From Bacteroidales bacterium (GTDB taxonomy: Bacteria; Bacteroidota; Bacteroidia; Bacteroidales; Marinilabiliaceae): DNA of 37,516 nt. Position 1 is the first letter of the stretch. Each line of letters begins with the position of its first letter. The notes beneath the pieces are model-generated. The model worked only from the letters and a program-made list of their open reading frames with translations. It was not told the DNA's origin and did no database searches. The stretch is taken from assembly GCA_015061285.1 (NCBI GenBank), contig SUWW01000019.1:23899-61414 (forward strand), read 5' to 3'. Made by a program: the position numbers and the translations under genes. Below are positions 6,489-12,776 of this stretch, in pieces.

Positions 6489-7082
6489 ATGAAAACAAAT
6501 GTTATTACTTGCGATTCAGATTTGATTCGCGGTTTTCAGTTTGGCAATGATGCTTCGTTTGGGGTGTTGTGGAATCGTTATAGATCGCGTCTGCGTGGTT
6601 TTGTGCGTCGACATGTTGATTATAACGATGTAGATGACATCTTGCAGGAGACCTCAGTAAAAGTTTTTTCTTCGTTGCGTGAACATCGCTACAAGGACGA
6701 TGGGCGATTCTTTTCGTGGGTAGCAAAAATTGCCGCAAATTGCGTGAAGGATTACTATCGTAGTCGTAAAAAAATATGCTCATTTACCGATAGTGAACAT
6801 GCGTTGGATTATTTCAACGAGTCGTCGCAAGTAGCGGAAGTGTGTGACAATGTAGAAAGCGAAATAATAAAAGACGAAGAGAAAAAACGCTTGGGTCTTA
6901 TGGTGCAGATGTTGCCCGAGAAAGTGCAACAAGTGGCTATCATGCGATGCTTCAACGATATGAAATTTGAAGAAATAGCAGAGGAAACCAATGTGAGTAT
7001 TAATACTGCTCTTGGGCGTATGCATTCTGCTCGTGTATATTTGCGTCAGTACATGAGATGTGGAACAAGAATATGTATATAA
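6489..7082 (+). CDS. ECF-type RNA polymerase sigma factor
   Basis: 197 residues, the usual ECF length. Region 2 covers about 10-95, with DVDDILQETSVKVF at 47-60 (region 2.2) and the WVAKIAANCVKDYYRSRKK stretch (77-95) for -10 recognition. Region 4 covers about 135-190, with the helix-turn-helix EEIAEETNVSINTALGRMHSAR at 161-182. It directs RNA polymerase to a specific promoter set. No transmembrane anti-sigma gene follows; instead an Hpt protein and a STAS protein lie downstream on the same strand within 45 bases, which suggests control by phosphorylation or partner switching. The operon promoter itself looks like the housekeeping type, so autoregulation is not evident. Confidence 0.93.
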   Translation: MKTNVITCDSDLIRGFQFGNDASFGVLWNRYRSRLRGFVRRHVDYNDVDDILQETSVKVFSSLREHRYKDDGRFFSWVAKIAANCVKDYYRSRKKICSFTDSEHALDYFNESSQVAEVCDNVESEIIKDEEKKRLGLMVQMLPEKVQQVAIMRCFNDMKFEEIAEETNVSINTALGRMHSARVYLRQYMRCGTRICI

Positions 7083-7125
7083 GATGATTCGATAATACAG
7101 AAAACATAGAGTTAAGTGTAGAAAG

Positions 7126-7554
7126 ATGGAGCATGTAGATTTGTCGTATATACGTTCGGTAGCCGATGGAGATGAGGAACTTGTAAAACAGTTTATAGAG
7201 ATATTTGTTTCGCAAGTGCCCGAATTTACTGCGGACATTACGAAGGCGCGACGCGAACAAGATTGGCGAGCATTAGCGGCCTCTGCACATAAAGCCAAGG
7301 CCTCTATAGCCTCTATGGGGCTGGAAGAGTTGGCGTTGAACATGAAGCGCTTAGAAATGCTCTCAAAATCAATATATATTGACACAACAACCGACAACGA
7401 CGCAATGTGCGATTCAATAAAAGCTCAATTGCAAACCATGCCCGATGAACTAAAGTTGTGGATTTCGCAAAACAAAAATCTAAATGCGATAGATGACTTG
7501 ATTAATTTTTATAACTTGCGTCTCGATTACGCACTAAGCGAATTAAAAAAGTGA
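7126..7554 (+). CDS. Histidine phosphotransfer (Hpt) domain protein
   Basis: 142 residues, all-helical, with the Hpt signature around AHKAKASIASMG at 54-65; H55 would carry the phosphoryl group. The preceding segment (5-50) with FVSQVPEF and the following LALNMKRLE helix complete the four-helix bundle, leaving a charged C-terminal tail of about 40 residues. Hpt proteins shuttle phosphate between hybrid histidine kinases and response regulators in the cytoplasm. No kinase or receiver gene lies in the window, so its partners must be encoded elsewhere. It sits between a sigma factor gene and a STAS gene, which is not the usual phosphorelay neighbourhood. Confidence 0.88.
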   Translation: MEHVDLSYIRSVADGDEELVKQFIEIFVSQVPEFTADITKARREQDWRALAASAHKAKASIASMGLEELALNMKRLEMLSKSIYIDTTTDNDAMCDSIKAQLQTMPDELKLWISQNKNLNAIDDLINFYNLRLDYALSELKK

Positions 7555-7574
7555 TTGATTAATTATTGAACGTC

Positions 7575-7883
7575 ATGGTTGATATAAAAACAGAAGGTAA
7601 TGAGGCTGTTATATCGGTGATTAATACGGATCGGATAACTGTTTCAAATGCCAGTGAGCTGAAGTCATCGATGCTCGATGCTATAAACGAGAAGAAATTG
7701 AACGTAATTATAGATTTAGGCAGCATACGCTATATAGATAGCACGGCAATAAGTGTACTTATAAGCGGAGTGAAAGCTTCGCGCATAAATGGATCTTCGT
7801 TTAAGTTGCGCAATTTGCAACCCGAAGTTATGCGTTTGTTGTCGCTAATGAAGATTGATCAAATAATGGATATCGAGAAGTAA
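7575..7883 (+). CDS. STAS-domain anti-sigma factor antagonist
   Basis: 102 residues from the ATG at 7575; a TTG nine bases earlier is in frame but less likely. The whole protein is one STAS domain: beta strands around 9-24, helix 26-40, strand LNVIIDLGS (42-50), then the phosphorylation loop YIDSTAISVL with S56 at the conserved serine position. Such proteins (SpoIIAA/RsbV type) bind an anti-sigma kinase when unphosphorylated and so free a sigma factor or other partner. It is the third gene of the sigma-Hpt-STAS operon, 20 bases after the Hpt gene. A kinase of the expected sort (SiaB-like) is encoded 3 kb downstream. Confidence 0.88.
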   Translation: MVDIKTEGNEAVISVINTDRITVSNASELKSSMLDAINEKKLNVIIDLGSIRYIDSTAISVLISGVKASRINGSSFKLRNLQPEVMRLLSLMKIDQIMDIEK

Positions 7884-10773: not shown

Positions 10774-11025
10774 ACATACTAATGTTATATTGAGGTACGA
10801 AAAAACAAAAACCATCAACCCAACCGACCATTGACGAAAGATGTTTATTAGCACTTTGAGTATTAAGAAATGTTATTGGCGAAGTCGGCAAACATTAAGA
10901 GATGTTTAATTGTTTTTTTGCGGTATTATAGGATAATAGAAGAAAAAGCATAAATTTGCGTTGATTTCTTCGTAGAAGAAAAACACAAATTAACCAAGTT
11001 AGAAGGCAATAAAACAGAATAAGTA
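10774..11025 (+). promoter_or_regulatory. Upstream region of the SiaB operon: -7 element, palindrome, repeated motif
   Basis: This 252-base gap has no gene. TAAATTTG at 10951-10958 is a perfect Bacteroidetes -7 element, but no TTTG is found at the right distance. Just upstream, TATTAT-AGG-ATAATA (10924-10938) is a perfect palindrome. Further up, a motif of the form AAGA(A/G)ATGTT(T)A occurs three times, at about 10837-10847, 10866-10875 and 10898-10908, spaced 29 and 32 bases. These could be binding sites for the LytTR-containing protein of the operon; this is inference only. Confidence 0.4.
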
Positions 11026-11634: not shown

Positions 11635-12216
11635 ATGGATGTTATAACAATTGCTGCAAGCCCCAAGACACCTTATATATGTGCAGACCCTATCAAAGGG
11701 CAAATAGAGATTAAGGGTCGTTCCATTCCGGAGAACTCAATAGAGTTTTATCGTCCGCTTGTTGAATGGTTGGAGCAGTATAGTGGGCAAGAAATGAAGA
11801 CAACCCAAGTGAAGATACAGTTGGAGTATTTCAACACAAGTTCTTCGAAATGTGTGTTGGATATTTTCAAACGTCTCGAAGTTATGTATCGTAAAGGGTG
11901 GAATATTGAAATATATTGGTATTACGACGAAGATGATGAAGATATAGTTATGCTTCAGTCGATGGAGAATTATGTCGCAGTTACGACGAAGCAGATGCGT
12001 ATTACGGTGCACGATACTCTAAAGAACATGCTTGATAAAATTGGCGAGAAGTATGTCATTCAATGTCAGCGCTCGTTTGCCGTAGGTATCCGTTACATAC
12101 AAAGAGTGAAGGGCACGAATATCGTTCTTGGTGATGATAAAAAAATAGCCGACGTACCGATAGGAAAATCGTATAAAGAACGATTGAAAATTTTGATAAA
12201 TTCTTTCAGTTCGTGA
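11635..12216 (+). CDS. SiaC-type phosphoprotein fused to a LytTR DNA-binding domain
   Basis: 193 residues in two recognisable parts. Residues 1-103 follow the SiaC family (DUF1987): GQIEIKGRSIPENSIEFY (22-39), LEYFNTSSSK (63-72) with the expected phospho-acceptor T68, and the strand IEIYWYYDEDDED (91-103). Where SiaC normally ends in a short helix, this protein continues into what looks like a complete LytTR domain: DIVMLQSMENYVAVTT (103-118), DTLKNMLDKIG (127-137), CQRSFAVGIRYIQRV (144-158) and VPIGKSYKERL (174-184), the counterparts of the LytTR ESxxNYV, HRSyiVN and IPvSRsY blocks. Phosphorylation by SiaB could therefore control transcription directly. It overlaps the next gene by four bases. 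Confidence 0.8.
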   Translation: MDVITIAASPKTPYICADPIKGQIEIKGRSIPENSIEFYRPLVEWLEQYSGQEMKTTQVKIQLEYFNTSSSKCVLDIFKRLEVMYRKGWNIEIYWYYDEDDEDIVMLQSMENYVAVTTKQMRITVHDTLKNMLDKIGEKYVIQCQRSFAVGIRYIQRVKGTNIVLGDDKKIADVPIGKSYKERLKILINSFSS

Positions 12217-12776
12217 AACTACCTATAGTGCTGTTGCTTACTTCTTTAGCGATGGCTTTGCCCAACGAGGCTCAAGAAAAATTTCATAGAGATACAGATA
12301 GTAAATTCATAGTCAACGAGGGTGATTTATTACCTCCGTTTTCTTTTGTTACGCTATCGGGTGATTCGCTTGATAGCGACTTTTTTGCCAATAGCGTAGT
12401 TGTGTTGCAGTTTGTTGCTTCGTGGTGTCCGTTTAGCACCTCGGAAATGAAAGCCATAGAACGAGATATATGGCAAAAATATCAAGCAACGGGAAATGTT
12501 CAGGTTTACGGATTTTCTGTTGATGACCCAAGCGACACAACGACGTTTCGCAAATTTTTGGCAGCAAACAACATTACTTATCCCTTTTGCTACGATTGCG
12601 ATGAGCGCATATATAAACTCTTTTCGACGCCTAAAGGAACAGTGCCACGGTGTGTGCTTGTGAATGAAGAGGGGAGAATAGTGCAGCTATCAGACGAGTT
12701 CTACAGAAAAGATTATAAAAGAATGCGACATTTGATACGTGGCATGGTTAAGAAAATGAATAAAAGCAGTAAGTAA
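12213..12776 (+). CDS. Secreted redoxin (TlpA/AhpC-TSA-like) with a WCPFS motif
   Basis: 187 residues. An N-terminal hydrophobic signal (about 1-20) predicts export. A thioredoxin fold follows: GDLLPPFSFVTLSGD (37-51), FVASWCPFS (67-75), GFSVDDP and the cis-proline region TVPRCVLVN. The active site has C72 but serine at the second position (S75) instead of CxxC, so it would act as a one-cysteine peroxidase or redox partner rather than a normal dithiol oxidoreductase. Two further cysteines occur in FCYDCDERIYKLF. The GTG start overlaps the previous stop codon (GTGA), showing translational coupling to the SiaC-LytTR gene. Confidence 0.8.
   Translation: MKLPIVLLLTSLAMALPNEAQEKFHRDTDSKFIVNEGDLLPPFSFVTLSGDSLDSDFFANSVVVLQFVASWCPFSTSEMKAIERDIWQKYQATGNVQVYGFSVDDPSDTTTFRKFLAANNITYPFCYDCDERIYKLFSTPKGTVPRCVLVNEEGRIVQLSDEFYRKDYKRMRHLIRGMVKKMNKSSK

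Follow-up and report, generated by a model that had tools for sequence, protein, structure and literature searches.

A SiaC–LytTR fusion in a Bacteroidales genome and its origin by deletion at a locus of separate siaC and response-regulator genes

Does a single protein in a Bacteroidales genome join the phosphoprotein SiaC to a LytTR DNA-binding domain, and does it place transcription under the control of the SiaB kinase encoded beside it? The locus lies in a stretch of 37,516 nucleotides (contig SUWW01000019.1, assembly GCA_015061285.1), hereafter the window, which contains no N. An earlier note, made from the sequence alone, had proposed that such a fusion exists and that, together with siaB, it forms a dedicated phospho-switch for transcription. 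SiaC and LytTR are indeed united in one protein, and the fusion is real (Table 1). The Pfam SiaC family PF09345 matches aa 6–118 (E 8e-36; 122.8 bits against a cut-off of 24.5) and the LytTR family PF04397 matches aa 102–187 (E 1.5e-12; 48 bits against a cut-off of 22.6), the two matches sharing 17 residues. The motif N67-T68-S69 is retained, with T68 numbered as in SiaC of Pseudomonas aeruginosa, and the SiaB kinase gene recognised by NF038262 ends 18 bases before the start codon of the fusion; the SiaC-like N-terminus with T68 kept and the adjoining kinase gene of the earlier note are thereby confirmed.

Table 1. Coordinates of features at the fusion locus, numbered from the first base of the window (G057, nearest congener in the comparison set)
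Feature	Position	Strand	Details
Conserved non-coding leader before siaB	10894–11025	+	122/132 aligned bases identical to G057
SiaB-family protein kinase gene, 196 aa	11026–11616	+	NF038262, E 8e-40; PF19788, E 4e-35
SiaC–LytTR fusion ORF	11635–12216	+	193 aa, single uninterrupted frame
SiaC portion, aa 1–103, with phospho-site T68, without C-terminal alpha3 and beta6	11635–11943	+	
Deletion junction	11938–11946	+	breakpoint fits equally after 11943, 11944 or 11945; 2-bp ambiguity
Predicted LytTR DNA-binding domain, aa 103–193, output half of the receiver–LytTR response regulator intact in G057	11941–12213	+	
Thioredoxin/redoxin-like gene	12213–12776	+	PF00578, PF08534; 4-base overlap with the fusion stop codon (GTGA, 12213–12216)

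Both domains are clipped where they meet. The fusion scores 94.4 bits against the SiaC equivalog NF038265, below the curated cut-off of 150, and its SiaC portion stops at residue 103, which is 24 residues short of the complete domain of 127 residues in G057, the reference congener. The earlier note had placed the splice exactly where SiaC usually ends, which is contradicted by all 22 of the other aligned SiaCs; each continues past residue 103, and 14 of the 22 do so with DMYES or DMYEA followed by G-x-DYQSI. In P. aeruginosa SiaC, residues 101–103 lie in the flexible beta5–alpha3 loop, L107 and F111 of alpha3 line a pocket beside T68 (PMC7647112), alpha2 and alpha3 provide most contacts with SiaD, and free SiaC is monomeric (PMC8457831); alpha3 and beta6 contribute both to the T68 pocket and to the partner (SiaD) surface (PMC7647112, PMC8457831). 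Because SiaC is cut at residue 103, the phospho-site is kept and the alpha3 helix is gone. Elsewhere in the same genome, a SiaC with a divergent C-terminus (L089:2630–3025) and a tandem SiaC pair (L090) were observed.

The LytTR part of the fusion is no chance resemblance: of its 91 residues, a single one is different in the corresponding half of the G057 regulator at the same locus. The PF04397 model has 98 positions, and the match begins at position 9 in the fusion and at position 3 in the G057 regulator; residues 103–190, which had been read as an entire LytTR domain, do score as LytTR above the cut-off but lack the beginning of the domain. The receiver domain with its phospho-accepting aspartate is present in the G057 regulator gene and absent from the fusion. 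In an alignment made by eye, the position equivalent to a base-contacting Asn of AgrA is occupied by Gly151.

Structure prediction gave a divided answer to whether a LytTR fold is present. AlphaFold model 2 places a LytTR fold, matching AgrA, ComE and 3d6w, beside a SiaC core that superposes on 6k4f/6kkp. In model 1, residues 104–116 are helical, and a fold search with it returned SiaC matches and no LytTR match; in its input alignment (A6) SiaC tails overlie the junction, and the model was accordingly set aside for the LytTR question, while being counted against the LytTR reading. The disagreement of the two models at the junction indicates that the fold predicted there depends on the input alignment. 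Two further alignments (A5, A7) were excluded because their LytTR rows were misaligned, and viral contigs were used as an extra sequence source (12 SiaC loci; 3 LytTR loci from one alignment and none from another). On one IMG/VR contig (L092:1536–2342), a single open frame encodes a SiaC domain together with what appears by eye to be an RpiB-like protein.

Comparison with G057 explains how the two parts came together. The locus of that congener comprises, in order, uvrA, siaB (196 aa), siaC (127 aa), a receiver–LytTR regulator gene (250 aa), a thioredoxin-like gene and a lysE-like gene, uvrA and lysE-like being named by eye. The contig of G057 appears to be publicly available as JAFYCM010000095.1 (L063), from a sheep-rumen Bacteroidales MAG. 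The window aligns to the G057 locus on both flanks of a 649-bp gap, and the G057 sequence absent from the window spans the final 24 siaC codons, the spacer between the two genes, and the receiver domain with its linker. Origin of the fusion by deletion at a locus like that of G057, with its separate genes, is clear. A deletion of approximately 650 bp would have fused siaC, presumably cut at the loop preceding its last helix, in frame with the LytTR-encoding part of the adjacent receiver–LytTR gene; the product would fold into a SiaC core and a LytTR domain, the latter freed from control by aspartate phosphorylation. This account is the best explanation of the fused reading frame, the two domains recognised by sequence, the unfused order in congeners and the missing parts, all of which are observed, and its remaining steps are inferred from them. 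Immediately behind the junction, 31 of 31 bases (11945–11975) are identical to the G057 regulator, and LytTR codons differing from G057 number none in 104–113 and 40 of 80 thereafter (Fisher p 0.002). A search for a second copy of the regulator in the same genome found none close, the other regulator matches being at most 38% identical, and a histidine kinase lost along with the receiver was likewise rejected, as three LytS-type kinase matches were found in both this genome (G000) and G057 and no loss was visible.

It was also considered that the joint is an assembly artefact and that siaC and the regulator gene are both intact in the organism. Although only one genome shows the fusion, this is very improbable, as the joint lies in mid-contig (35.5–36.1 kb of 61.4 kb) and is free of ambiguous bases in an assembly of 25 contigs with 99% completeness and 0 contamination, and a mis-join over 2 bp would, in our judgement, be unusual.

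The unfused order recurs in the genus. In 7 of 14 congeners (G055, G056, G057, G060, G062, G063, G068), siaB, siaC and the regulator gene are consecutive; in 6 others (G058, G059, G064–G067), a related regulator is found at another place, and in G061, which is 74% complete, a close regulator match was not found. The thioredoxin-like gene follows the LytTR regulator in all 13 congeners possessing the regulator, and outside the genus siaC was found within 2–3 kb on each side of none of 10 regulator relatives. The linkage of regulator and thioredoxin-like gene is hence more constant than that of siaC and regulator, and this shallow siaC linkage counts against the functional one-protein switch considered below, whereas a distant metagenome-assembled genome (L064), in which siaC is directly followed by a receiver–LytTR gene, hints at a functional link. 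The earlier note had asked whether homologues would show the C-terminus to be a usual SiaC variant: congeners keep an ordinary SiaC and a separate receiver–LytTR protein.

Scans of family, order and phylum genomes gave no second case of the architecture among the matches listed. Among the matches listed, the full fusion protein in one piece occurred in its own genome only (71 family genomes including its own), as did the junction-spanning region of aa 61–193 at full length (393 order genomes including its own; matches listed to E ~4e-13, scan threshold E up to 1e-5), and in 395 phylum genomes including its own, the own genome gave the only match to aa 61–193 at E up to 1e-16; these scans detect near relatives of the fusion rather than all distant SiaC–LytTR combinations. 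When 295 class genomes were scanned for the SiaC family, 172 matched, and the matches listed, which do not include the window's own, had open frames of 124–174 aa only. Long matches in G068, G036 and G038 (family) and in G266, G397 and others (order) contain in-frame stops. In G068, siaC and the regulator gene are separate, and both G266 and G221 (a 197-aa frame with a stop) have an ordinary SiaC of 126 aa. The G397 match lies at a contig edge, and among the ORFs listed there is no closed ORF of at least 100 aa on that strand beneath it. At eight other loci (L067, L068, L070, L071, L073, L074, L076, L077), the neighbour of siaC is an oppositely oriented gene for a protein of 371–388 aa with two SiaB-like matches.

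Whether the fusion works or is an accident was approached through its divergence from G057. Non-synonymous and synonymous differences number 0 and 23 in the SiaC part (aa 1–102) and 1 and 41 in the LytTR part (aa 103–193), which makes one amino-acid difference in 193 codons. If half of dS is assigned to the window branch, approximately 275 amino-acid-changing substitutions would be expected in the absence of constraint, against at most one seen; the time free of constraint is estimated at less than about 2% of the window branch, a rough figure given that the LytTR dS of 1.9 is near saturation. This near-absence of amino-acid change in both pieces indicates that either selection maintains the fusion or the deletion happened very recently. 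The non-coding leader of siaB (132 bp) is 92% identical to its G057 counterpart, while in six surrounding coding stretches 39–79% of synonymous sites differ, which suggests that control of operon expression was kept until recently or is kept still.

The most likely reading, which we consider probable, is that the deletion is recent and has left a LytTR protein over which SiaB has impaired control or none. Within it falls the narrower reading of a recent inactivating deletion that left a non-functional remnant in one strain, to which we give somewhat less than an even chance; occurrence in one known genome, the clipping of both domains at the joint and a breakpoint ambiguity of just 2 bp are in keeping with it, but 649 is not divisible by 3 and the frame is nevertheless preserved (a chance of about 1 in 3), and neither part has acquired a stop or more than almost no amino-acid change.

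The same conservation can be read as function. The fusion would then be a one-protein switch in which SiaB phosphorylates T68 and the phosphorylation state alters DNA binding by the LytTR domain, replacing the receiver as input. The retained N67-T68-S69 context, a siaB gene whose product is 93% identical to that of G057, the in-frame joint with both halves almost unchanged and the conserved leader agree with such a switch, and there are known LytTR domains whose input is not a receiver. However, the fusion has lost alpha3 and beta6, which in P. aeruginosa belong to the pocket around T68 and to the surface that meets the partner, and the conservation could be older than a very recent deletion. 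We regard the functional switch as unlikely, if worth keeping in view, and set the same low expectation on its central step, direct control of DNA binding through phosphorylation of T68 by SiaB; SiaB-controlled transcription through the fusion is possible. More doubtful still is a one-polypeptide threonine switch evolved in one step by receiver deletion; in its boldest form, residues 104–117 might alternate between a helix standing in for the missing alpha3 of SiaC, as in model 1, and the first LytTR strands, as in model 2, with phosphorylation of T68 tipping the balance. The dedicated phospho-switch of the earlier note is not upheld, given a fusion in one genome only, its origin in a 649-bp deletion and the loss of alpha3/beta6. 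The deletion origin and the anatomy of the fusion, taken together with functional readings that lean towards impaired or absent control and leave direct control the smaller share, form an overall account in which we have good confidence.

Three kinds of known system come closest to the locus. As in SiaABCD of P. aeruginosa, a SiaB-family kinase is encoded beside a SiaC domain that has N67-T68-S69 and a core fitting 6k4f/6kkp; unlike that system, the window's contig (C22) carries no SpoIIE-type phosphatase gene, the SiaC of the window lacks alpha3 and beta6, and the output is an attached LytTR domain instead of a bound diguanylate cyclase. All 11 SpoIIE-domain matches in this genome lie on other contigs, and one adjoins another siaB–siaC pair; at L086:30–2547, a SpoIIE-domain gene, siaB and siaC are consecutive and are followed by an ABC-transporter-like gene, forming a SiaABC-like set. 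With receiver–LytTR regulators of the AgrA and ComE type, the fusion shares a LytTR domain that is recognisable in the sequence and in the fold of one of the two models, and its LytTR part derives from such a gene of the same operon, but a SiaC core replaces the deleted receiver and linker. CoxC, whose LytTR output reportedly stands under a membrane gas sensor, and the LytTR regulatory systems, whose output is said to be under a membrane inhibitor, likewise have a non-receiver input; there, however, it is a membrane sensor or inhibitor, and here a STAS-like phosphoprotein, SiaC. No description of a SiaC–LytTR fusion, or of a partner-switching or STAS domain tied to LytTR, was found in open-licence PMC full texts, in agreement with the earlier note, which knew of no described example; in the same texts, the family names of SiaC and SiaB led to PMC8457831 alone. 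With congeners still unfused, the locus illustrates how a single deletion can exchange a receiver domain for a partner-switch phosphoprotein as the input of a two-component regulator. A functional fusion would wire SiaC directly to transcription and make the output of SiaB readable as DNA binding.

Around the locus, a search for RNA elements at the leader and the junction gave two matches at E < 0.5, each under half its gathering score, and promoter-like sites were as frequent as expected (8 observed, 8.5 expected). Terminator-like sites in the window between 10700 and 13600 numbered 7, against 2.1 expected from shuffles. The repeats ATTAAGAAATGTT/ATTAAGAGATGTT occur at 10862 and 10894, 32 nt apart, and the conserved leader includes the second only. 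The downstream thioredoxin-like protein has CPFS at the usual CxxC site and looks secreted by eye. Upstream of uvrA, genes for an ECF sigma factor, an HPt protein and a STAS protein are consecutive (6489–7883), the latter two resembling the HptB/HsbA pairing of P. aeruginosa.
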